From Malachius bipustulatus (taxonomy: Eukaryota > Arthropoda > Insecta > Coleoptera > Melyridae), in NCBI GenBank assembly GCA_910589415.1, contig OU342632.1:40251637-40315636 (forward strand): DNA of 64,000 bases, in the 5' to 3' direction. Below are positions 12,031-60,800 of the stretch, in pieces. The number at the start of each line of letters is the position of its first letter. Positions within the stretch are counted from its first letter, which is position 1. A program made the position numbers and the translations under genes. The notes below the pieces were generated by a model. That model did no database searches. It worked only from the letters and a program-made list of their open reading frames with translations, and was not told the origin of the DNA.

Positions 12031-13898
12031 ATGCAGGATGTCCCAGAATAAAGGGGGCAAATTTTTAAGGAAGAATAGCTATGTATTTACTTGATTTTAA
12101 GACAAAAAGTTTTCATGAACCTACCCTCTAAATTGAGTACCTATTAAAGAAGTTACAGGGTGTTCAATGATGCACAAAAAAAAATTAAATTTCTTTGAAT
12201 AACTCCGAAACGGCTAAATAGGTATTAGTTCGACCTATAAAAATTGTGTTGTTATTCTATTTACTTAGTCTAATGTAACAGCAATAAATACCTCTGTGTA
12301 ATTTGAACCAGGGACGTACGGTAAATAGTGGTCCAACTTTTTTACCCCCAAATTTTTACGCCACTGGATAAATTTTGCTTATGACATATTTTTTCAAAAA
12401 AGGGGATAGGTTTGTTATGTAAATTCTCTACAGATTTTGAGATATGTACCTACAATAATTAAATAGGTTGTTCAATAAAATTTACATATAAAAATTAAAA
12501 AATAATAAAACCAAAAAAAGTTGAGCTCATAATAGGGCTACGAAACGCGGCTTTTTTCGTGGTCGAGGGATCTGGAGACGAAAAAACCCCACGTCAAATT
12601 GTAAATTTTTCCAAAAAGTTGAAAAATCTTGACGAAAACCTATAGGTAATTTTTTTTCCTTCTCGAATGCCTAAATCGTATATACAGGGTGAATTATAAA
12701 AAACGCCCCAAGCGATAACTCCGGTAATTTTGAAGATATGACAAAACTTTTTGGAGCAAAGTGGCGTAGTTTATCATCATTTATATGTTGAGATAAACGC
12801 TCGATCAACACAACTTCCTGTTTAACCGGAAGTAACATCAACTTCGGGTTTTTAAATAGAACACCCTGTAAAACTTTATATTTTTTAAATATCTGAAGAA
12901 ATCTAATACAGGTGGTTTTCACCATTGGAATTTAGATTGAGCGGTTTATGAGTTATAAACAAGTGAAGATCGAAAATTTTCAACTTCAAAGCAGCGTAGA
13001 ACTAGAACGGCTCAAGATATCTAAAAACGGTTTACATGTCCCTATCTTAACTTTTGACCTAGTATCCTACTATGTGGTTTAAATTTTAATACAGGGTGAT
13101 GTTAAATCGGATAATTTTCATCACCCTGTATTAAAATTTACTCCACATAGTAGAATAAAACATGAAAAGTTAAGATAGGGACATGTAAACCGTTTTTAGA
13201 TATCTTGAGCCGTTCTAGTCCTACGCTGCTTTGAAGTTGAAAATTTTCGATCTTCACTTGTTTATAACTCATAAACCGCTCAATCTAAATTCCAATGGTG
13301 AAAACCACCTGTATTAGATTTCTTCAGACATTTAAAAAATATAAAGTTTTACAGGGTGTTCTATTTAAAAACCCAAAGTTGATGTTACTTCCGGTTAAAC
13401 AGGAAGTTGTGTTGATCGGACGTTTATCTCAACATATAGATGATGATAAACTACGCCACTTTGTTCCAAAAAGTTTTGTCATATCTTCAAAATTACCGGA
13501 GCTATCGCTTGGGGCGTTTTTTATAATTCACCCTGTATATATTATGTCTTATTTCAAAAACTGTTGAGGATTACCTCATGCCTTTTTTGAACCAGAAATG
13601 TCTACAGCTTTTGTAAAAATATGCGAAAATACAAATTTATCCATGCAGTGGCGTAAAAATCGGTGGTAAAAGATTTGGAGCCCTATCTACCGTACTCGTC
13701 CCTGGTTCAAGTTATACTAATAATTATTGCTGTAATATTAGACTTTTTTATAGAAAAACGGCACAAAAAATTTCATAAAAAAATATTCAGCCGTTTTGGA
13801 GTTATTAAAAAAAAAATCAAAAATTTTGTACATAAACACCCAACTCAATATTCTACTTAGGTATAAGTTTGTTCCCTTCATTCTGGGACACGCTGTAT
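12031..13898. mobile_element. Outer inverted-repeat element containing a second foldback
   Basis: The left end (ATGCAGGATGTCCCAGAATA) and right end (TTCATTCTGGGACACGCTGTAT) are inverted copies. A second pair of matching blocks lies further in: CCAGGGACGTACGG..ACGCCACTGG at about 12309-12367 against GCAGTGGCGTAAAA..CCGTACTCGTCCCTGG at about 13645-13708. The region between is occupied by the foldback at 12679-13541. No transposase is visible. Confidence 0.75.
12679..13541. mobile_element. Foldback element with about 430-bp arms, nested insertion
   Basis: Arms begin and end with TATACAGGGTGAATTATAA and its complement, and mirror each other almost base for base up to a centre near 13110, where GGGTGATG..CATCACCC forms a short inner palindrome. 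The minus-strand frame at 12671-12925 and the plus-strand frame at 13295-13567 translate to nearly the same peptide because they are the two arms. They differ at few positions, so the copy is fairly young, or conversion keeps the arms alike. No catalytic protein is present. Confidence 0.85.
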
Positions 13899-39878: not shown

Positions 39879-42800
39879 GTGAGTTAATTTTTTTAATGTC
39901 TCTTTTTCTTTTTCTTTTATTATTTCAATTCAAAAATTAATTGCGTTTCTGCTATTAACATAGGTAGGTACTAATTACAAAAAATATCAATAAGTAGATA
40001 TTAATAAACTACTTTAATAATGTTAAAATCCAGAATCTGTTATAAAAAGTAAGTTTCGTTACAATAAGCCAATAAGCAAAGCAATTTTCGTCTTTCCATC
40101 AACCAACCAACCACCTGCCATTCTTTTTATACTAAAGACTACGAATAATTAGATAGTATAAAAAAATCCACAGCATCTCTTTTTCAACAATTCCGATCAT
40201 CATTGAACCGTTGATGTCCGCGTTCATCGTCCTGTGTCGAGCATATGCCGTCGTATGAGAGCGGTTTTTCACCTGCCCTCAGTGTTACCAGTATAACGAG
40301 CCCCAAACACCTGCTGCCAGCGTGTGCCTGCTATCAGCCTGCAGAGTGGACCCCTTCTCGTCGGCCCCACATAATGCCAGGCACGATCCTCGCCTGAGGG
40401 GTAGAGAGGATATCCCAACCACCGACACCACAGACATACAACCTGAAAGTGATATTATTAGAAATACACCTATCCCTGATTAGTCATAGTTTCCATGTTA
40501 TAATTATTTTTTATTCCTGAACTTCTAATTTAATCCTGATGGAGAGATTTTTCTAAATAAGTTCTAACTTCATATCAACTTATTTTCTTTTAATCCAAGA
40601 ATAAACAGAGCTAAACAGAAGTTTCCCATTTTTTCTAATTATCATTTTTTGATGGGTATTACGAAAGGCAAACAATATTTTCTTAAAAACGATCTTCCTG
40701 TAATAAAGAGGTTCCTATTGATTTTTCCAATTTCTCAAAGTATAGTCAACATTTTCCTCAAAAATAGGTTCGACTATGATAACCGAAAAATGTTTTGCTT
40801 GCTTCAATAAAAGTAGGTAAATATTTTTAAAATAAAAAATTTAAACGCCAAGTCATTTGCAATTTAATGTAAATTGAAAGAAATCAAAAAATCATATACT
40901 TTTTACCAAGAAATTTGAATGAGAAAATTTATCAAAAATTGCTTAAAAACTAAAAATCCAAAGTTAACCAACATCGAAAATTATTTAAGTAAAATCTATA
41001 TAAGTACCTACCTAAATGAAAATATGAACAGAAAATAAGGTACTTTGACCGCTCATATTTTTTGTCTTGGACAAAATTCTCAAAATCAATTTTTTTATTT
41101 ATCTATTTAGGTATTTAATTTATCAAAGTTTTCAATTTTGATCAAACTTTGGATATGCTCTTTTTTAACAGAGCGATTTTGAAGAATTTTCCTTTTTTAA
41201 AATTTTCAGAAAAATCCCTTATACAGGGTGTTAAGAAAATGACGGATAAACTCTTCAGTACATTGTAGGGGACACTCAGTAAAGTACGGGAAAAATAATT
41301 TAAAAAATTCCAGAGCTACATTTTAAAAGATATAAGCAAAATATTGAACAATAAATTTGGCAACGTTTAACACAATAACAGTTGCTATTTGGTAATTTCG
41401 TCTAATTTCTAACAATGTAGGTAGTCAAGGTATCAAAACCGTTGTTGCCAAATGCTTTTTTTTTCAGCATCTTAGAAAAGAAAAAAATCTTATTAAATTT
41501 TCCAAGCCAGTACTACATCTTAAGCAATCTTTTTAATTGATAACGATTAAAGTACCCTTTTTTATATCTGTAAAATCATCTAGTTTTTGCAAATACCGAA
41601 AATATTATAAAATAAAATATGCAAATAATAAAATGTTAACTTTGGCATTTTTTATCTCACCAAATTGAAGACCAGAATTTTTTAAATTATTTTTCCCGTA
41701 CTCTACTGAGTGTCCCCTACATTGTACTGAAGAGTTTATCCGTCATTTTCTTAACACCCTGTATGTATAAATTTTTCAGTTTTCAATTAGGTATTTATTT
41801 TTTAGACGGCATTTGAATATTTTTTAGCATTTTTTCATCACTATCCGAATGAAAAATGGCACATTTTTCTGTTTACTCGTCAGCGTGCGCGAAGTTTTTC
41901 GCACACTAGAGTTAAAACTTACATTTGCTTCCCTAGCAACAAAGAAACAAACAACTTTGCACTAAATAAAAAATTTCCTTATGTCATTTTTAAGATTTTT
42001 AATTCGTTTTTTTTTTCGTTTATTCCAATAAGCTGTCTAAAAAAGTTGTATGCATCTCGAGCGCGAAATTATGGTGCACGTCTTAAGAAACCTTTTTTTA
42101 GTTTTTATTAAACTATTTAATGAGAGCTTATTAATTCAAGTTTTCAATAAAGCTTCCCAATAATTTTTCATAAGGGCTTGTCTACATTGTAAAAAATGAA
42201 AACTGGTGAAAAACGAGAGAACAGAGAGAGAGGCGGGGGGGGGGCTTAATAAAGGAGAAGGCTAAAAATATTAAACAATTGTTCAGGGTGTGATTCTTGA
42301 AACCTGAAATAATCAAATATATCGAAAAGTATAGGTGAGCATTCTGCAGAAAAATGTTTTTTTACAAATATTGTTTTGTTCGATGGGGGACGTTGTTGAA
42401 ACTCAAAAACTTCAGAAGTATCAGATAAATCTCACACATTTTTTGTCGCATGATATTTAAATACAGGCTGTAAGACAGCCCAGTAAAAATTTTAGCATTA
42501 TAAAATCGCAAAGCTTGATTAGTTTTGGTTTTTTAGTATGTTATATGATATGGACCAATTAGGGTAGTATGAATCCAAATTTGAAAAACTTGTGCTCGCT
42601 GCGCACCGCCCGAAAACCTGCAAAATATTTGGGATTATTTTTACTTTTTGTTCTAAAAATCATAAACTATACGTTTTTCGACAAAAACTTAAGTACTTTC
42701 TTAAAGCCAATAAAATTTGTACCAATTCTTCGCAGCTCTATATAAACTCTAGGGACTAAGCTACCTACCCTTCAAAGATGGTAAATTTTTTGGAAAGACA

Positions 42801-45800
42801 AAATCTGCAGAGCGCTTGAGACGATATAATACTGATTCTCCTATACGATCATTGCAAGACCCCGGGAAAATATGTTCTCGAATGAACGAAACAAAGAACG
42901 CTTCATTCAACATGTATGCTCTGTATGATCTCTTGAACGGATTGAAGCGAAGACAGCAACGGAAGACACAGACCATATAGGATATCGTTCTGATGGCATT
43001 GGAGAAAACTACGAGCCACGATCACGTTCGTTCTCCTCTGTGGATTGCGTTTACCATCCACAACTTGCGCTTTCAGAAACGTGGACATGGCAGAAGTGAG
43101 GTAGGATGCCGTGCAGTATAGTACCACCAAGTGCGTTCAACCGAAGGGAAGTTGAAGTGCCCAGCGGATTTGAACGGTTTCTTCAAGCTGTTATACTGAA
43201 TGTGACACAACCTCTGCACTTTTCTGGAAGGAAAAAGGAAATTTTGGTGTCAATTTCAGAAGAGGCAGGACCTAGGAGACCTGGTTACTATCTTCCTCCT
43301 AATATGACAGTATTGCTGAATATGGCGAAAAGTGGTGGCTCTTTACGAAGGTAATCCAGCCACTCAGAGACTGCAAGATTTGTGGTATATCTTCTAAAGA
43401 CAGCGGCAAATACCTACAAAGGTCAATCTAGGATGTTTACCTCCAACCACCAAGACTGCCTCTTTCCATGCGTTCCGCAACTACCACCAAGTGCAAAAGT
43501 GGCTGGAAGTAGAGAAAAACGCCATGGAGTGGAGTTAGGAAATGAGCTCCTGCGGCCTCATCCCACCGACAACAACTCACAAAGAGCCAGTCTTACCACA
43601 TCTTCTCAAAATCACTGCCTACAAATGTAAGAAGGGACACAGGGGGAGTCTTGCCTGAAAGCTGGGTTCAAATGCTCGACTCTTTTCGATAGACGAAGAC
43701 GAGAACGAGAACACGAACCGGAAGAGCTTGTCGAACCTGAGGACCTTTATTTTAATTGACATTTCTCATAGAACAAGTGATTTTGACGCAATATTATGCT
43801 CCAGACCTCGATAACACTTCAGGGTGTCAATTTTCGGGAAAAATTGACCATTTTTGAAGGGTCATAGGTTGGTCCCTATGGGTTTATAGAGTTGCGGTTT
43901 GACATAAGCTATTACTACAAATTTAATTCAATCAAAATTAATAAACTTTGAAAAGTACTAATTTTATTTGTCGAAAAATGCATAGTTTATGACTTTTAGA
44001 GCAAAAAGTGACAAAAGTCACAAAATTCCGCAGTTTCCGAAGTTGCAAATTTGAATTCACAGCACCCTAACTGGTCCATACGCAACTTACTAAAAAACCA
44101 GAACGAATTTGTGATTTTAGCCTTTATCAGGGTCAATTTCTACTGAGGAAAAAATCATCCTTAATCATCATTAATTGTATTTTTTAGCACTTTTTTCAGT
44201 TTAAAATCACACAAAATAACATTTACAGTAGAAAGCAGCTAAAGAGTGGATGAAAAAGAAACCTGAAAAATTATTTAATGCTGTCTATTTATAGATAAGT
44301 TAAAAGGTATACTGACCTTTGATTTATTGTACTTCTGAGAATTTAATCATCGTAGACGCACTCAGTGCAAATTTCTTATCTACATTTTTATTTTTTATTT
44401 TTTAATACATTTTTAAAGCTATTGTATTTCATAAATTATGCTCGATATTTATTGCTCGTTCCTGGTAATATACCGTCCACCGTCCAGAGTAGTTACCTAT
44501 TAGTTTACAACTATTCCGTCTATCAGAACATAACAATAGATCTCTTTCTTAGAACAATAATTATTAGATATTATAATACATCAAGAAAAATCTTAATCTT
44601 ATTGTTAAACAAATAATTGTCTATACATGGACCGGAAACTGCATGCAAACAATAATATCCTCGTATGTATCTGTTTTAATGGTTCGGCGTCTGGGATTTG
44701 TAATTATATATAGCAACTTAATTTATGTAATTTTTTACGAATTCTTTCTAAATAATAATTAAAAAAGCTGTCTTCAGTTATGTTAGGTACCTACTATAAT
44801 ACCTATTACTATTCAATGCATAGCTGCATATAAATAATTATGCAAAATTGAGATGGGTAATTAAGAATTAATTCAACACATCAATTTTTTTACTTGCCAT
44901 GCAGAATTAAATCATATTTTACGACTCTCAGTAAATGATACCTTTCGTTACCGCATACTTATATTTTAGAAATTTTTCAATTGAAATTCAATACAAATTT
45001 TTAAATTTGTTAAAATTTCAGTGAAGCTTTCAATTTTCAATTTAGAAAACAGTGTAATACACGTTAATTTTAGAAAGTAAAAACATCCCTGAGTGTGAGA
45101 CGCATCGTTTTTTACCAAGAAATGAAGACAAAAACTTAAGAAAGGGATAACTTTCAAACTGATCGCCTTCCCGCCCCCACCCTCGAGGATCCGCGGGATA
45201 GACCTTTTTTTAGGACCTTCAGGGTCTCCTAATACATTTCCCAACATATTCCCGAAACTCTGCGCCATTACATGGTTTAATGCAGCAAAACCAACTTTTT
45301 TGGATAATTTAACAAGACTACCTATACCTATACTAGCCAGAAACACAGAGTTAATCACATAAGTATAAGTTGCAGGCATAAATCAAAATCTTACTAGAGT
45401 AAGAAAAATAAAATAATAATTGAACTCTTGATCTAACCAATAACACCGTTAAACCAGAGGCGTGCACGCAGGAAAAATTAGGGGATTAATGTATTCAATA
45501 ACCCTCATTGCCTCCCTTCGCTCATCGAATCTCTAAGTAAAATTTCTCAAAATGTGCCGGCAGAAGAAAAAAGTATGTGCAAAATATCAACTGATATCTT
45601 AATCATATCTTATCATAAACAGCCTTATCTTCATACCTTCAAAGGACTAAATGATAAAAGTGCGTTAAGAAGGTCCTATTATTTTTAACAAAAAGATGAA
45701 CGACATATCGTAAAACGATACGTCATTCATTGATTTCATGCTGTGAGTCAGGGGTGGAAATTGTAGACACGTGTTTCGTCCTAATTGGGACTCTTCAGTA

Positions 45801-48800
45801 CAATGTATCTTGCTAACACACAGCACAATCTTAGTCACTTAATAGTGAGAAAAATGATAAAAATAAATTAAAATAAAAATAGCACGGTGGGTTCGGCTTT
45901 CGCCATAGGATGCAACCCCAGGCAGCTAAAACGCATGCCAACAACTGAGTGCAGTGCCTCCCGATGTGCGTAAAGGTAGGAAAGGCCTACTTCCAAAGTT
46001 TAACAAAAAGATGAACGACATATCGTAAAACGATACGTCATTCATTGATTTCATGCTGTGAGTCAGGGGTGGAAATTGTAGACACGTGTTTCGTCCTAAT
46101 TGGGACTCTTCAGTACAATGTATCTTGCTAACACACAGCACAATCTTAGTCACTTAATAGTGAGAAAAATGATAAAAATAAATTAAAATAAAAATAGCAC
46201 GGTGGGTTCGGCTTTCGCCATAGGATGCAACCCCAGGCAGCTAAAACGCATGCCAACAACTGAGTGCAGTGCCTCCCGATGTGCGTAAAGGTAGGAAAGG
46301 CCTACTTCCAAAGTTTAACAAAAAGATGAACGACATATCGTAAAACGATACGTCATTCATTGATTTCATGCTGTGAGTCAGGGGTGGAAATTGTAGACAC
46401 GTGTTTCGTCCTAATTGGGACTCTTCAGTACAATGTATCTTGCTAACACACAGCACAATCTTAGTCACTTAATAGTGAGAAAAATGATAAAAATAAATTA
46501 AAATAAAAATAGCACGGTGGGTTCGGCTTTCGCCATAGGATGCAACCCCAGGCAGCTAAAACGCATGCCAACAACTGAGTGCAGTGCCTCCCGATGTGCG
46601 TAAAGGTAGGAAAGGCCTACTTCCAAAGTTTAACAAAAAGATGAACGACATATCGTAAAACGATACGTCATTCATTGATTTCATGCTGTGAGTCAGGGGT
46701 GGAAATTGTAGACACGTGTTTCGTCCTAATTGGGACTCTTCAGTACAATGTATCTTGCTAACACACAGCACAATCTTAGTCACTTAATAGTGAGAAAAAT
46801 GATAAAAATAAATTAAAATAAAAATAGCACGGTGGGTTCGGCTTTCGCCATAGGATGCAACCCCAGGCAGCTAAAACGCATGCCAACAACTGAGTGCAGT
46901 GCCTCCCGATGTGCGTAAAGGTAGGAAAGGCCTACTTCCAAAGTTTAACAAAAAGATGAACGACATATCGTAAAACGATACGTCATTCATTGATTTCATG
47001 CTGTGAGTCAGGGGTGGAAATTGTAGACACGTGTTTCGTCCTAATTGGGACTCTTCAGTACAATGTATCTTGCTAACACACAGCACAATCTTAGTCACTT
47101 AATAGTGAGAAAAATGATAAAAATAAATTAAAATAAAAATAGCACGGTGGGTTCGGCTTTCGCCATAGGATGCAACCCCAGGCAGCTAAAACGCATGCCA
47201 ACAACTGAGTGCAGTGCCTCCCGATGTGCGTAAAGGTAGGAAAGGCCTACTTCCAAAGTTTAACAAAAAGATGAACGACATATCGTAAAACGATACGTCA
47301 TTCATTGATTTCATGCTGTGAGTCAGGGGTGGAAATTGTAGACACGTGTTTCGTCCTAATTGGGACTCTTCAGTACAATGTATCTTGCTAACACACAGCA
47401 CAATCTTAGTCACTTAATAGTGAGAAAAATGATAAAAATAAATTAAAATAAAAATAGCACGGTGGGTTCGGCTTTCGCCAATCATTTTTCTCACTATTAA
47501 GTGACTAAGATTGTGCTGTGTGTTAGCAAGATACATTGTACTGAAGAGTCCCAATTAGGACGAAACACGTGTCTACAATTTCCACCCCTGACTCACAGCA
47601 TGAAATCAATGAATGACGTATCGTTTTACGATATGTCGTTCATCTTTTTGTTAAACTTTGGAAGTAGGCCTTTCCTACCTTTACGCACATCGGGAGGCAC
47701 TGCACTCAGTTGTTGGCATGCGTTTTAGCTGCCTGGGGTTGCATCCTATGGCGAAAGCCGAACCCACCGTGCTATTTTTATTTTAATTTATTTTTATCAT
47801 TTTTCTCACTATTAAGTGACTAAGATTGTGCTGTGTGTTAGCAAGATACATTGTACTGAAGAGTCCCAATTAGGACGAAACACGTGTCTACAATTTCCAC
47901 CCCTGACTCACAGCATGAAATCAATGAATGACGTATCGTTTTACGATATGTCGTTCATCTTTTTGTTAAACTTTGGAAGTAGGCCTTTCCTACCTTTACG
48001 CACATCGGGAGGCACTGCACTCAGTTGTTGGCATGCGTTTTAGCTGCCTGGGGTTGCATCCTATGGCGAAAGCCGAACCCACCGTGCTATTTTTATTTTA
48101 ATTTATTTTTATCATTTTTCTCACTATTAAGTGACTAAGATTGTGCTGTGTGTTAGCAAGATACATTGTACTGAAGAGTCCCAATTAGGACGAAACACGT
48201 GTCTACAATTTCCACCCCTGACTCACAGCATGAAATCAATGAATGACGTATCGTTTTACGATATGTCGTTCATCTTTTTGTTAAACTTTGGAAGTAGGCC
48301 TTTCCTACCTTTACGCACATCGGGAGGCACTGCACTCAGTTGTTGGCATGCGTTTTAGCTGCCTGGGGTTGCATCCTATGGCGAAAGCCGAACCCACCGT
48401 GCTATTTTTATTTTAATTTATTTTTATCATTTTTCTCACTATTAAGTGACTAAGATTGTGCTGTGTGTTAGCAAGATACATTGTACTGAAGAGTCCCAAT
48501 TAGGACGAAACACGTGTCTACAATTTCCACCCCTGACTCACAGCATGAAATCAATGAATGACGTATCGTTTTACGATATGTCGTTCATCTTTTTGTTAAA
48601 CTTTGGAAGTAGGCCTTTCCTACCTTTACGCACATCGGGAGGCACTGCACTCAGTTGTTGGCATGCGTTTTAGCTGCCTGGGGTTGCATCCTATGGCGAA
48701 AGCCGAACCCACCGTGCTATTTTTATTTTAATTTATTTTTATCATTTTTCTCACTATTAAGTGACTAAGATTGTGCTGTGTGTTAGCAAGATACATTGTA

Positions 48801-51800
48801 CTGAAGAGTCCCAATTAGGACGAAACACGTGTCTACAATTTCCACCCCTGACTCACAGCATGAAATCAATGAATGACGTATCGTTTTACGATATGTCGTT
48901 CATCTTTTTGTTAAACTTTGGAAGTAGGCCTTTCCTACCTTTACGCACATCGGGAGGCACTGCACTCAGTTGTTGGCATGCGTTTTAGCTGCCTGGGGTT
49001 GCATCCTATGGCGAAAGCCGAACCCACCGTGCTATTTTTATTTTAATTTATTTTTATCTATTATTTTTAGCCAAACAATCTGTAACTAATAGTTTGGCCT
49101 ACTTTTTGACAACACCCTGTAGTGTGATTCGTAAGTGATCTGTTCGCTAATCAGTTTTTATCAAAATTTTAATCAGGTATAGTGCTTCTTGCTGGTGTAT
49201 CCTGCTAGAACTCCTATTATAAAGGTTGCGGTTATCTGCAGACAATATTTAGATGAAATATAAGACATCTTCAGCTTCTCCCATTTCACAGAATGTGTTC
49301 CATAGCATTATTCAGTTTACCACGAAATGATTATAAAGCTATTAGTTTTATCAATCTAATTCCAGCGGTAATGAATCCGTATGGACAATGGACATCTCAA
49401 CTGTTGATGGATCATCTGATTGTTTTAAGTATATTAATATTGTAACTCAACTATAGCACTGAAAACGATCTGCGTTGTGTGATAACAAACGTGCCTGTAT
49501 CTTTTCTAGGAACACTCTTATCAAATTTGTTTTGGAATCTTATTTTCATGCGATTATTGATATTCCTAGATCATCTTTCTACAATAATTGTTAGTTGATG
49601 TCTGGTTATTTCACACTTTTATCTAGTTTCGCGTAGGTAGTTAACATTTTATTACACACATTCCTCTGTAATCGACAAGGGAGATTTTCAAGTCAAAGAA
49701 TTTAATTTTCAGAGCCTGGCCTGAGGTTAATGTCAAGATGATTTAATAATTAATTATAATACAATGGATTTCCATGGAGGATAATTTTTTTATGTACATA
49801 TTTATGTAAGTATACCTAAAAAATGAACTATGAAAAAATGATACCGTATAATGACGCCACAAAATTTTTACAATAAGTTTTATCCTGAAAACTTTAATTT
49901 GAACGAAATTATACGGCTATACAACTCCTGAAATGTGGCCCATCAGTCATACCTACTAACTTCTTCTTCATCTAAGATTAGGTATGAGTTTTAAATGCAT
50001 TACCTATTTAAAATTTTCTAAGGCAAAATTAATTTCTATAGTTTATCAATTTCTCGCATTTTTATAATATAATTTGTCCTCCAAAGAGGATTTTTGTATA
50101 ATTTATCCTTCTATAAAGTAATTTTTTCGGTTTTTAAAATCGTGGAAATCAGTAATGAATACGTCTGCATGTGATGGAAAAAATAATTTTCGTAATTCAT
50201 ATGATCGATTTGATTTTCTCCAAAAATTATCTTTCCTGAAAATTTCCTGAAAAAGTCCGAATTAACTCATGTTTCACAAAAATCTACTTTCTCCGACCAG
50301 ACCACATCATCATCGATTTTCCACACTCAGCAAAAACGAACTGAGTTCAATGGCGACTATTTTCAAAAAATGACAAAATCAGCGGGGGATATGTTATGGG
50401 TTTCTGGAATAGGGAGCTTAACAGATTTAGGTACCAGAAAGCTCTTGGCTATTTTTTAAGATGATTTTAAAACCGAATTTATTGATATTGATGTTCGATC
50501 GCAGCTGACTGATTTGCTCTTCGATCTTCATCAGTCTCTCTTCACTCTTCAGTGGTTCAAAGTTGACTCAATCAATTGCTCTGCTTGCGCTTGTCAGTCC
50601 ATAACACGGTTAAAATCGAGACAACTTTTAAGAAATTTCTCCTATACATTTCACAGTTGTTGATGTAGACAAGATTCTAATAAATAATTCAAATTTTATG
50701 GTCCAAAATACTTTGTATGACAAATTAAGCTTTCTATGATCGCGTGTACATTCATCTAATCCTCCAAAAGATAAAAAGCTTCAAGTCAAAAAATTATTAT
50801 CACGCAAAAAACATTACACCCCTGATGCCATAAGTATTTTCTTCAGATGTTCCCTCTATACTATGCAGTTGCCAATTAACGTTGTTTAATCCCCGGTGAA
50901 AACATTTTCAAAGAAGTAGGTATAGATATAAGTATTATGTTGTACTATAAAATTGTATACTTAGGTAATTGAAACTTTCAAATAGTGGTATATAAGTTAA
51001 TTTTTCCAAATGAGATTTTTTTATCATGTTATTATAATAAGGTATATCATGTTAATCGAGGCAGTTTTTTTTCTATACCTAGGTAGGTATATAAATATAC
51101 GAATTATTATTGTAAAGCTTTTTTTATAGAATGGGTCAATGATTGATATTTTAATTTATCATTAGCTACCTCGTAGTTGAGCAAAATTGCTGTAATTCGC
51201 GATTTTTTATGATGCTTAGCAAATGCAGACATCAATAATATGATACTCGTTGATGGTTACTGTAATAACGATATAGCGCTATTCGTGCAGTTAATGAATA
51301 TCGACGTCATTTGCATTTGCCGAATCGAATGTTCTTGATATAAAAAGAGTATAATTATATGACTGTATTTGCCAAAGCGCGAGAGGGAAAGTTATTGCTT
51401 ATAAATAAACGGACTCTTTCTGATAAAAAGAAGATCTTATACATGGATTGGAACTTCTCTATACACTTAGTTTAGTCAATTTTCTCTAAATATGTATAGT
51501 ATAAACAATGCATGGTCAACTTAAAAAAAAACTTTTCTGTACTCAATTCTCCGTAGTTTCTTTATGATGGTGAAAACGACACTTCGATATCTGATTCCTA
51601 TCTCGAAATATAGCCATGCGTCAATTAGTTGCGACTGTCTACACATGTGCCCTATACAGTGTGTCCGGCATAATAAGTGAATTTATAAGTATAATAGCAA
51701 AAAAAATTCGCGGTGAAATTTGACCATTTAGGGTCCAGGCCTGCTTGATTAGATATATTATTTGTGTCCCAAATGAGTGTAATTTGAAAGACTAATTAAA

Positions 51801-54800: not shown

Positions 54801-57800
54801 GAAATTGGATAAAGTCACATTTATGTTCATTTGGATGGGAAAAACAAAGGGATGCATGGTTAATAGAAATATCCTCACTTCTTATTTTTCATTTTTGCTT
54901 AAGAAATTTCTAGAAAATCAATAGGGATTTTTGAAATAATTAGATTTTTACACGAACGATCTTCATGGTTCTTTCAAGTTTTATCATTTGCGAGTATACG
55001 CAGGGTGTAAATTAATTACCTAGTGTAAAAAAATCAAGGGTGATACCTTATTGAAAAATAAAAGATGGGTCTTTCATAAAAAAATGCAATAGAACATCCC
55101 CTGTTTAGATACAGCCCTTCATAGGGGCGCTGAAAACAGTTTTTTTGCGAATTTTTTAATTTTTAAAAATAATTACGAAATTAATTATCGTCTTCAAAGA
55201 ACAACATATTTCTAGAATAATTCAGGGAACAGCCCTTTGATTTTTCGCCGTATGTTTAACAAACACAGTTTGTAGAAAAAAATAGAATTGAAGAACGGTA
55301 TATACCTACCTAATCAAAATCAACCCAGAAAATGTTCCACAATCATCGGAAACAATAACTCTTGTATCGGTGTCAGAGTACACATTATCGTTTCCGATAT
55401 ATTAATACAAATAATTGTCTCTCCCATACTAAGAAATAAGACAAAGGATTTTATCTCTCCACGAGTGTTCATCAGGTGTATAATAACATGCACTCCTATA
55501 CGACAAAGAGTTATCTTCTCTTATATTTGGTGAGCCAGTGAACCATGGACGAGATGTTAAAACTGTTTCAAATCAAACATTACAGTATTTGCTCTGGCAT
55601 TATTCATCTTTTTCCGTTTGTCTTTAGATATGAGTTATGCTGCTCCCAAAGAATCAGTTTACATTCCTCAGGAAAAGAATGATATTTTCTTGATGAACTT
55701 ATTAATATTCCTTTCTCTTCTACATATATGTTTAATGGTTTATTTTTTATATTCATTATCTTATCAGTCACTTTTAGGAGAACTATTTTGACTTAACGTT
55801 AATATTTTTAGACGATGCTAGAAGAACTTTAAAATTATTATATGCGGAACTAAATCCATAGATTCCTTCATTTTTTTATGGGACCCTTTTTTTCAAATTA
55901 TGCTGTTTTCGTTTATTTGGACTGTCTTTTTCCTCGTTAGAGCTCTTATTTTATCAAAACCTCCTTGTTCCCCAGAGTTTAGATGTTTAGTAAAATAGAA
56001 AAATAGTATTAGAAAAATATTACCTAAATAATCATCAGCTCTTATATGTTAGACGTATAAGTACATATAAAGGAAATCTTATTCTACTCGTTTAAATTTC
56101 CGATTATTGTACTGATGATGGTAAAACCGGACAGGAAACACGTTCCCCAGCATCTTGGGGAATTCGTTTCCTGATGGGAAGTTTAAGGTTTTAATAATCC
56201 CTATCAGTTCCTGAAAATAACAATTACCTAATAAAAAAATATTAACCCTCAATCTTACCTGTGTAACGGCTACTTAGACATGCACTACAGGAAATATCAC
56301 TCACAGCACAATGTCAGCGTTGCATTTTAAAAGAAGTTAAAAGTTAAGTTCCATCTGCTCATGCCAAGATCTGCGATGATAATAATTAATCCGGGGTATG
56401 GTTCTTAAGTTCTCATGAAATTATACGTTGCTCTCTTGAATAAATTTAATTTTCGTCCTGCAAATGGTAAAGGTTGACGTCCTTGACTTTGGATTGTTTA
56501 GAGAGGAAGCGAAACCTGTGTAATGTGGTTTTTTGTTGCCTTGCTATATCTTATTGTGGTCCATTTTAATCACTTGTCTTTCCGTTCCCCGTTCAGACTC
56601 AGTTTCCTCTGAAAACAAAGCCGGAGAGTCTCCGGTCCTAGCGATAAAGTCTTTAAAGATCTTTATCATCTCCATTGCCACCTTAGTAATTTATTCAAGC
56701 GTCTGTAACGAGTTTGTTTACGCTTGTTGCTGCCACTTCTCCTGCCTTATGTTTCGGTGTATTGTTATTCATACCTGCAGATGCGGTTTGTCAAATGATC
56801 ATATTTATATGCAAGGTGGCCTGAATGGCCCATTAAATGCGCAAAATTTCCTTTCGTCAGAATGTTAATTTAATGTCTTCGTTTCAGCGACCAATATCAG
56901 CATGGATGGTTCGCTGGAATCGAATCGGATCATCTCCAAAGAGAAATCCGTGCAGAGTGAGAAGAGCGATTCTGGAATATTCTCTTCGACTCATAGCTCG
57001 GATCAGATGGATCTCTCATCCACCAGTACTCGCAATAACACCACAAACTGCAGCAATAACACCGAGCACAGCGAGTCTGATGATCGTAGCGACTGCAGTT
57101 CGCCTGAAAGAAAATACTTTTGCCCCATTTGCGATACCATATTAACATCTCAACACGAATTCACCCTTCATATACGATCTCATAACAACGAATCAGAGAT
57201 TCAAGACACCGATCGAGGATTTGTGTGCCGTATTTGTAACAAAATACTCAGCTCCAGCTCAAGTTTGGATCGTCACGTTCTCGTTCATAGCGGAGAGAGA
57301 CCGTTCAATTGCAAGTACTGCGGAGATTCCTTCACCACCAACGGGAATATGCATAGACATATGCGTACTCACAAACCTGACAGTTACGAATCCGATGGTA
57401 GTTCCGATAGTACCGGATCCAAGATCGAATACAACAACAATAAAGTGGAGAAAGAAGCAACGAGTCTGAAAAGGAAAGCTACCGACACCACCATGGACCT
57501 TAGCAACAAGAAACATTCCGGTGATTCTGTGGATGAATCTGAGAGTGATAACAATCAGCAACATTTCGAATGTCCTGTGTGCCATAGGACCGATTTCGAT
57601 TCGTTATTGATATTGAAGACTCACTTGGAAGACAACCACCCGGAATATCCCGCTAAATGTGACCACTGTCAGCAGATCTTTCCGAATAACAAGCAGCTAA
57701 TTTCTCATAGAAATTCTGTCCACGACAACTTGAACTCCAAGCATCCTGTCTTGGGTTTCAGAGATCTCACGTTCGTAGACTTCTCCAGTGAAAAATTCAA

Positions 57801-60800
57801 GCATATCGCTAGGTATGAATGCGAGAAAAATCTCCACAAGGTAACCGGTAGCTTGAAATTTCAATGCAAGAAATGTTCGAGGGGTTTTCCGTGTTTGGAT
57901 TCTCTAGATATACACGAGCAAGACTGCACCAATCATTTGGATCTCACTAAAAGTGGTCTCGATTTAACAAAATCCACATCTATGACGGAAACTGACATCA
58001 GAAGAAACGAGTTTTTCTCTAGACTAGATTTACAGGACAACTCTCCAGAAAAATCACCTCCTCTTCCAGCTTTACCTAAACCTGAAATACAAACAAACAA
58101 CAAACTTCGTCAGCAACTGTTGGGAAAACACCTAAACATTGAAGGACCGAAAGATTTGGCCGATATTCAGTCTATTATTTCCATGACAACGAATGAAAGT
58201 CTTTTCCCACAATTACAATCGAAACCTCATGACGTTACCAGTAAGTCTTATGCAGAATCAATCGAATCCAAAGATCAAGAAGAAGAAAGTCAAGACTTCT
58301 TCGCAATAGAATTTCGAAAAATGAAAATAAGGGGTGAATTTCCTTGCCGATTGTGCACGGCAGTTTACCCGAATTTACGAGCACTGAAAGGCCACAATCG
58401 AGCTCATCTGAATGGAAACAACAACGGGACATATCGATGCAACATGTGTCCACATTCCTCCTTTGACAAAGCTGCCCTGATTCGTCATATGCGCACACAC
58501 AACGGTGATCGCCCATACGAATGTTCGCTTTGTAATTATGCATTCACTACCAAGGCAAATTGCGAAAGGCATTTACGTAACAGGCATGCCAAAAATAGCA
58601 GAGAAGAAGTGAAGAAGGCAATAATATACCATCCTTCAGAAGATCCCACCAACGATGAGCTTAATAAACTAGCAGCCAAAGATAAAGATGAGTGTAAGAA
58701 GATTACCATGACACCAATGAATGACATTACCAAAGAAGCGATAACGCCAGAAAGAGTCCTCAGCTCGACTCCAAAGCTATCAGAAATCAACAGGTCAATT
58801 CCAGAGCCAAAGCCAGATTTATTGAAACCGGATATTTCTCCACTTATGCCAAATTTACAGTTATTAAAAGGAACTTTGAGCATGCCGATTCCCAAAGAGC
58901 AGCCACCTACCCCGAAGGTGTTTCCAAATGTGAACGACATCATAAAGAGTGAAAATTTGAAAACATTGCGTGAGCATAAGATTTTATCAAATTATTCTCA
59001 TATTCCTTATGATTTTGCATCAAAACTTCCAAATTTACTTACACCCGGCAATGCACCTTTGAATATTCCTGCAGTGACGTCAAATCTTCAAGATAGTAAT
59101 TATGAGAGTCAATCTGAAGAAGAATTTGAACAGGAAGAACCTTTAGACTTGGTTTTAGATCTTAGCAAGAAGAAAAGTAGCACCAACGAGAAAATTGATA
59201 CTTTTCACGATGACTCACCTCAAGATTTGTCCAAAAAATCTAATCCTCAGACTCCTCAAGTAAACGTCAATGAATTATTCGCTCACCAGCTGCTTAAGAC
59301 GCCGCCAAAGCTAGATCCAGCTGCTCTCTATGCTGCCACTCAGCTTGCGATGTACCAAAGATTCCCAGGTTTCCCGAATTGGCCTAACTTTCCCTTGAAT
59401 CCTATGATGTTTCCAGCCCTACCTACTCCCATTATAAACCCCGAACAAGAGATGAAGGAAAGGCTAAAACTTCAGCTTTCTGGGGGTCAAATGGTATCTG
59501 ATAACTTCGCTGAACGTCTGCAGACTTTACAACATCAAGCTTTTGCTGGTCACAAAATTCCACCTTTTAATGGCTTGAAAGAGGAAGATGTAAAACCAGA
59601 AATAAAAATGGAAAATAACTTCATGCAACCCAAAAATGACATAAGTCAGCCTTTAAATGTGCATTTAGATGGCAATTTCGGAGACGGTTTGAATAAACTG
59701 AGAAGTCCTTTGGCACCTCCAAAACAAGAAATCATCCATTCTCCAAATTCAGTAAAAATGGTTATTAAAAATGGTGTATTGATGCCAAAACAGAAACAAC
59801 GTCGTTACAGAACAGAAAGACCATTTACATGTGAACACTGTTCTGCTAGATTTACCCTACGTTCAAACATGGAACGACACATAAAACAACAGCATCCTCA
59901 GTTCTGGTCTCAAAGACAAAGAGGCAATGTCGGCAACCCGGGACGTAAAAGCCATTCCTTGTCTTTGAAACCCAACTATTGTGATATTAATGTACCAAGC
60001 TACGATCTACCAAAGAACCCAAACATGGAAGACACCAAAGAACAAATTAGTGAGAAAATCAAGTTTGCCATTTTAGCTCAACATCTTAAGAACCAAGCTC
60101 AAATCAGTCAAGTTGAGATAAAGAGAGAAGACGACGATGATCAAGAATTGATCATTGACGAGAATGATATGGGTGACTCTAAGCAAGAGGACGATCTGAA
60201 TAAGGTTCACGACTTCAGCGCAGGTGATAAGAGCAGAATATTGGAAGAGAAACTGAAAGAACTCCATGCAAGGCACTTTAAAGCTGATAGTAAGAGTGAT
60301 GAGAACCAAGATCTGGTACCTGTATCGCGATTATTGGATAACGCGTCTCAACAGCAATTCAAAGAGTATTTCAAAAGAGATAGAGAAGAACCTGAAGTTT
60401 GCGGGGGAAGTGAAGAAGATGAGGAAGGTTTAGTCGCTAGTGGAAGCACTAGTGAAGGAAATGTATCTGGAACAGACGAAAACAGGTAAGAAATTTTAAT
60501 TCTTCAATCTAAGTTTACGTGTGTAAATGGATAATTTATTTGCAGATCTGAATGCGAAACTGCAGCTCCGGTGAAAAAGAAATCCGCATACTCCCTAGCA
60601 CCAAACAGAGTGAGCTGTCCTTATTGCAGCAGGAAGTTTCCATGGACTTCTTCACTACGTCGCCATATACTCACTCATACTGGCCAAAAACCATTCAAAT
60701 GCAGTCACTGTCCCCTTCTCTTCACTACAAAATCAAACTGCGATCGCCATTTGTTGAGAAAACATGGAAATACTGCCACCACAATTAGTACTGAATGTAC

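Follow-up and report, generated by a model that had tools for sequence, protein, structure and literature searches.

Two-armed insertion of a hammerhead retrozyme in the beetle Malachius bipustulatus and its likeness to co-resident Penelope-like elements

Introduction

Non-coding repeats with hammerhead ribozymes have been described from animals and plants. The animal non-long terminal repeat (non-LTR) retrozymes consist of tandem non-coding units of about 150-450 bp with a type I hammerhead and a low GC content (under 45-50%), have target duplications of more than 4 bp and share their genomes with Penelope elements (PMC7229834). Here, we describe a retrozyme of the beetle Malachius bipustulatus, found in a stretch of 64,000 nucleotides (C3:40251637-40315636; hereafter the window), that agrees with this description: its tandem non-coding units (315 bp, GC 0.41) each contain a type I hammerhead, a 12-bp duplication flanks it, and Penelope-like elements reside in the same genome. 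As read from its sequence, the array at 45684..49058 is one insertion composed of two head-to-head arms, which was probably, though by no means certainly, made by a Penelope-type enzyme that primed both target strands on one, probably circular, RNA.

In the published work on animal retrozymes, as far as it is covered here, both the enzyme that moves them and the route from a tiny circle to a tandem genomic array are open; it has been proposed that a primed circle yields tandem complementary DNA (cDNA), and Penelope elements have been named as strong candidates (PMC7229834). The main text of that study does not contain the words inverted, head-to-head or opposite, and nothing in the part covered was found to speak of two arms or of a fixed pair of start points, whereas the beetle element is head to head and has both of these features. 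Plant LTR retrozymes resemble it in being non-coding, in carrying a hammerhead and in a movement that is thought to proceed via circular RNA (PMC4918200; PMC7761336), but are described as having type III hammerheads, LTRs, a primer-binding site (PBS), a polypurine tract (PPT) and 4-bp duplications (PMC7761336). Other animal repeats with hammerheads are the W-elements of Schistosoma (PMC8490949) and pDo500 of cave crickets (PMC2837043); a putative target duplication is given for one W-element, and a two-armed insertion was not found in the text examined (PMC8490949). Penelope-like elements have head-to-head and tandem copies, a hammerhead, internal starts and AT-rich targets in common with the retrozyme (PMC3846280; PMC11167929), and differ from it in encoding a reverse transcriptase and a GIY-YIG endonuclease. 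In rotifers, Penelopes are mostly head to head, their duplications measure 8-10 bp as against 12 bp at the beetle retrozyme, and a tail is optional on one inverted repeat (PMC3846280). The kind of element is known; its two-site, both-strand insertion signature and its likeness to co-resident Penelope-like elements are new within the literature searched, in which no description of a head-to-head or two-site retrozyme insertion was found, many journals and supplements lying outside the search.

A Single Insertion with Two Opposed Arms

An earlier note on the window had read the locus as one tandem satellite of 315-bp units, each with a minimal type I hammerhead and without protein. The unit, its ribozyme and both outer coordinates (45684 and 49058) were borne out. 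Searching with Rfam gave 11 matches to RF00163, one per unit, each spanning 1-45 of 45 at 53.5 bits (E 4e-11; gathering score 34); the type I model is covered over its full length, and the alignment has the 6-bp stem I, the 4-bp stem II and the short helix III that had been claimed. No mismatch occurs at period 315 in either half. The longest listed stop-to-stop frame within the unit has 75 aa (frames of at least 55 aa were listed and judged by length alone), and no open reading frame (ORF) of the unit is long enough for a reverse transcriptase or GIY-YIG protein. The single orientation, in contrast, did not hold: six ribozymes lie on the minus strand and five on the plus strand, and a 12-bp duplication encloses both groups (Table 1). 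This two-armed architecture with its target duplication is the informative part of the locus and was missed by the satellite reading.

Over 1578 nt, the two arms repeat each other perfectly in inverted orientation, with a 47-nt spacer between them. The exact 12-bp repeat CTATTATTTTTA adjoins both outer edges of the array; among 30,000 draws of random position pairs, compared in the same register with a slack of up to 6 on each side, a match of at least 12 occurred once with flanks from the whole window and never with local flanks. Because one duplication pair encloses both arms and is so rarely matched by random position pairs, the array is a single insertion, and two separate insertions are ruled out. 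Tandem identical units would also be seen if inversion or recombination had rearranged an ordinary satellite, and ribozyme satellites are known in animals, yet this origin is hardly credible, given that a target duplication lies at both edges and that the layout recurs at independent sites whose duplications differ from one another. A simple satellite was rejected on the opposite orientation of the arms and the presence of the duplication. Foldback-type DNA transposons have long inverted repeats built from sub-repeats, which the 1578-nt inverted repeat with its flanking duplication recalls. This explanation can practically be discounted, as the two termini lie at different monomer points and insertions in a single orientation bear the same duplications, and a foldback DNA element was rejected for the former reason. 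Identical units are hard to assemble and their numbers may be off; an assembly artefact nonetheless deserves almost no credence, given the unique flanks with their duplication and the independent loci with the same layout. The unlike flanks and the recurrence of the layout elsewhere likewise rule out a fold-back artefact.

Arm Ends and Target Duplications Across the Genome

The 544-Mb assembly (52 contigs) was searched for further copies. With the 315-bp unit of the window, 394 matches were obtained, many of them 100% identical. In the ribozyme search, 74 of 73,468 first-look candidates were scored, all of them above the cut-off, and the loci found in this way were read as 8-kb stretches (20 loci) and then as shorter stretches (12 and 16 loci). 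Most of the loci read belong to a sister subfamily, whose unit measures about 320 nt and in most cases has an identity of 75-81% with that of the window (BLAST). An insect retrozyme family of 315-nt monomers, as the earlier note had proposed, is well supported by these sequences: the published traits that could be tested were found, and the named best matches of the RREB1/hindsight reading frame at 56869-60486 of the window are beetles, the first being Asbolus verrucosus (61%). The perfect identity of the units fits the recent activity that had been suggested.

Counted from the ribozyme cut, the outer arm ends, which correspond to RNA 3' ends, cluster at two points of the monomer, site A at about 80 nt and site B at about 225 nt (near 79 and 227 in the first 20 loci). 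Among the matches listed, all nine mixed-orientation loci of the 315-bp family, the window included, are head to head, and in the eight further ones, with both ends read, one arm ends at A and its partner at B in 8/8; for five of these the A end was already visible in the listed coordinates, and the other end was sought where B was expected. Among 28 head-to-head insertions called by BLAST, 25 combine A with B, none has A twice and one has B twice. This rule was derived from the window together with the 20 loci read first and then tested on loci taken up later, where it was found in 14 of 16 insertions. The B end of L016 was placed at 220, within an A-rich stretch, and two loci that combine A and B by eye (L031, L032) stand outside the insertion counts. 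Where arms have a single orientation (n=25), the outer end is A in 17, B in 5 and another point in 3. Sampling through ribozyme matches favours ribozyme-bearing arms, which may explain both the excess of single A over single B and the passage of the sampled A arms through the cut site.

Exact flanking repeats of at least 12 bp are present in 31 of 55 insertions, as compared with 5 of 2970 mismatched flank pairs (0.17%); the length is exactly 12 in 17 insertions and exactly 11 in none. Two loci (L043, L054) whose ends are not both contained were left out of this set. Seven of the eight further mixed loci of the 315-bp family have exact 12-bp repeats, and the remaining one (C2:35.29M) has a repeat of 10 bp, or 7 bp under stricter slack. 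The duplications differ in sequence between independent sites with the same two-armed layout, and single-orientation insertions carry duplications like those of two-armed ones. Twin priming, the model for L1 inversions, would by way of a long interspersed element (LINE)-type enzyme also yield head-to-head arms, target duplications and weak microhomology. We regard it as improbable, since it would not be expected to start internally at two fixed points or to leave a footprint that stays so close to 12 bp, and since the insertions end without poly(A).

The inner ends are scattered. Only 4 of 49 fall within the A or B windows, against 4.7 expected, and the inner ends of the two arms of an insertion usually differ. 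This bears on self-priming (snap-back) of cDNA or of an antisense transcript, by which the palindromes at the junctions of inverted rotifer Penelopes, and with them the inversions, have been explained (PMC3846280). The inner ends of a snap-back product should meet at the same monomer point; in the window they lie at 176 and 223, in many other insertions they differ as well, and the outer ends (A and B) are also unlike. Self-priming is disfavoured for both reasons and seems very improbable here. Three inner ends lie at monomer positions 1, 4 and 7, and one internal jump lies at position 2 (L034, L023, L016 and L032); these four points, each within 7 nt of the ribozyme cut, are slightly above the one or so expected and possibly reflect run-off on self-cleaved RNA.

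A consensus fold was computed from 11 of the 20 monomers prepared, which comprised 18 rotated copies as well as 2 references (L019 was too short). The 16-bp hairpin that it contains directly 5' of site A has double-sided changes in 2 pairs and a single broken cell. A helix of 5 bp between 80-85 and 225-230 has 3 such changes but also 7 broken cells; this helix, which would place sites A and B side by side, is only a hint. Folded alone, the 45-nt ribozyme gave a z of -0.15.

The RNA Template

Evidence on the template comes from variants and from unit lengths. In 5 of 16 head-to-head insertions compared (L014, L016, L022, L026 and L028), both arms share a variant private to the insertion, that is, found in none of the others compared; the overlap between arms is short in several. 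The locus C2:35.29M contains nine successive units, each of 314 nt and of equal score. Shared private variants and equal units fit the repeated copying of one monomer, so that the template RNA was probably a circle. Penelope-type two-ended priming on a long uncleaved linear multimer instead of a circle is unlikely, while still deserving some weight: the Anolis Penelope protein accepts unprocessed RNA in vitro (PMC11167929), the arms read across the ribozyme cut, and a homogeneous source array would likewise yield identical units. Against a linear multimer, the right arm of the window starts at 225 and stops at 223 after five turns, a coincidence of about 2% by simple arithmetic, and the nine 314-nt units and the private variants common to both arms fit a single monomer, without being decisive.

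Penelope-Like Elements of the Same Genome

Penelope-like reverse transcriptases, for which the earlier note had advised looking, are present in the genome. Of 775 GIY-YIG candidates 150 were scored, and many of these matches sit in ORFs 823-855 aa long, arrayed in tandem and head to head; one family (F1) has RVT_1 and GIY-YIG, the others being known by their GIY-YIG match and ORF length alone. Among those scored, neighbours within 8 kb are arranged minus-to-plus in 23 cases and plus-to-minus in 2, and both of the latter join families that differ in score and profile range. A CTGANGA...GAAA core lies 105-167 nt upstream of the first ATG in five Penelope-like families, and one is present in F5 too. 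Arrays with units of about 3.3 kb and ORFs of intact size were seen on C11 and C9, that on C11 with six minus units followed by eighteen plus units.

The layout of their insertions is similar to that of the retrozyme, in which internal start sites are common to independent insertions as in the Penelope-like mode. Measured from the ribozyme cut, a proximal end (+56 to +86) is paired with a distal one (+93 to +128) in 8 of 15 head-to-head insertions; these eight belong to F1 (L073, L059/L060, C13), F2 (L070, C17, C6:1.07M), F4 (C4:31.83M) and F3 (C1:48.21M). Three F2 insertions have 13-bp repeats (TTCTTTAATAGTG, TTTTTTTAAAATG and TAAAAATCTATTG) outside TA microsatellites, which makes F2, with an ORF of 823 aa at C6:1.07M, the best candidate partner of the retrozyme. 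The F1, F3 and F4 insertions with readable ends sit in TA-rich repeats (TA microsatellites), and a difference in target choice between F2 and these families is possible. Across site B, the window monomer and the F2 leader have TTTATCATTTTT in common (words of at least 11 arise in 3% of 300 shuffles), and F1 shares an 11-nt word with the same site-B place, away from F1's own start; such likeness is weak and does not single out F2.

A Possible Route of Insertion

The recurrence of the two-armed design in other copies suggests that, where a chromosome was cut, a Penelope-type enzyme copied a single RNA from both of the resulting ends. The retrozyme RNA would be cut by its own hammerhead and probably closed into a circle, and a Penelope-type protein with reverse transcriptase and GIY-YIG endonuclease, encoded elsewhere in the genome, would take it up. 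The enzyme would cleave AT-rich DNA with a 12-bp stagger, and both DNA 3' ends would serve as primers for reverse transcription of this one RNA. The first would start at site A, about 80 nt past the ribozyme cut and just beyond the hairpin, and the second at site B, which lies in a U-rich tract about 225 nt past the cut. The cDNAs would travel round the RNA over distances that vary, so that each consists of identical units arranged head to tail; joining of the two cDNA ends would produce the head-to-head arms, and filling in of the stagger the target duplication. We infer that the template was circular, and likewise which enzyme acted, which cut came first and how the arms were joined. A Penelope protein of Anolis cuts and extends both strands in vitro, starts internally and uses AT-rich targets (PMC11167929), and by arithmetic on the part of that study covered its start lies 85-92 nt past the ribozyme cut, near site A.

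Several observations weigh against this route. In the Anolis study, as far as covered, the start site is equal on the two strands, giving no support to one site per strand, and the main substrate is unprocessed RNA, giving none to a circle (PMC11167929). The loci were found through ribozyme matches, so that short arms without a ribozyme are under-sampled. One head-to-head insertion has B at both ends (L039), two have one outer end away from A and B (L020, L030), and three single-orientation loci end outside both sites (L044, L046, L053). The exact flanking repeat is below 12 bp in 24 of the 55 insertions, in 11 of them no longer than 5 bp. The arms of one insertion also differ privately, most of all in L025, with 16 sites versus 1 shared. 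An Rfam scan of eight GIY-YIG loci (L057-L064) with E up to 10 did not find a hammerhead, although a core string is visible in F1. Among the Penelope-like insertions, C4:27.09M (+74/+4) breaks the two-end rule, L072 (+78/-319) may break it, and in five others (L071, L074, C14:42.47M, C6:36.50M, C16:7.16M) it could not be read; the two Penelope sites are 34-44 nt apart, versus about 145 nt between A and B, and the likeness of the Penelope start sites to those of the retrozyme is weak (36 comparisons, best fraction 0.016, F1 and F2 alike).

Other Features of the Window

The coordinates of the features are given in Table 1. The exact ribozyme pattern had no match in a collection of genome contigs and none in a collection of viral contigs. 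A sub-threshold match to RF03926, a microRNA (miRNA) family, at 47374-47541 (51.6 bits; gathering score 94) spans the arm junction and is probably the inverted repeat only. Elsewhere in the window, a short element at 41221-41764 has inverted ends of 115 nt (88% identity), one of which matches 18 nt in the 5' half of the hammerhead exactly, with an E of 0.003 within the window, which may be chance; an inverted repeat of 423 nt (96%, spacer 17 nt) lies at 12679-13541.

Table 1. Features of the retrozyme insertion in window coordinates. Monomer positions are counted from the ribozyme cut; of double values, the first leaves out and the second includes the bases that also belong to the duplication.
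Feature	Position	Strand	Remarks
Left copy of 12-bp target-site duplication CTATTATTTTTA	45676..45687		last 4 bases common to array
Left arm, 5.7 identical units, 6 ribozymes	45684..47480	-	outer end site A (monomer 78/82), inner end 176
Type I hammerhead	45760..45804	-	RF00163, 53.5 bits
Type I hammerhead	46075..46119	-	RF00163, 53.5 bits
Type I hammerhead	46390..46434	-	RF00163, 53.5 bits
Type I hammerhead	46705..46749	-	RF00163, 53.5 bits
Type I hammerhead	47020..47064	-	RF00163, 53.5 bits
Type I hammerhead	47335..47379	-	RF00163, 53.5 bits
Head-to-head junction	47480..47481		without shared base, without added base
Right arm, 5.0 identical units, 5 ribozymes	47481..49058	+	outer end site B (monomer 224/225), inner end 223
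Type I hammerhead	47535..47579	+	RF00163, 53.5 bits; cut expected from the motif between 47573 and 47574
Hairpin directly 5' of site A, first plus-strand copy	47609..47643	+	monomer 36-70 (35-69 in the consensus fold)
Type I hammerhead	47850..47894	+	RF00163, 53.5 bits
Type I hammerhead	48165..48209	+	RF00163, 53.5 bits
Type I hammerhead	48480..48524	+	RF00163, 53.5 bits
Type I hammerhead	48795..48839	+	RF00163, 53.5 bits
Right copy of 12-bp target-site duplication CTATTATTTTTA	49058..49069		first base common to array

Implications

The genomic copies record the reaction that made them: their starts recur at two points, of which each arm usually has one, the footprint measures 12 bp, and the layout is similar to that of the Penelope-like elements in this genome. 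The recurrent ends point to a class of partner and give exact positions that can be tested with purified protein. The chances seem about even that animal retrozymes are short interspersed element (SINE)-like parasites of Penelope elements and that both insert by two-ended rolling-circle target-primed reverse transcription, in which the cut would be staggered by 12 bp, each of its 3' ends would have a start site of its own on a single circle, and both chromosome ends would copy that circle at once. The two-site rule could also account for the tail on just one inverted repeat of Penelope elements.

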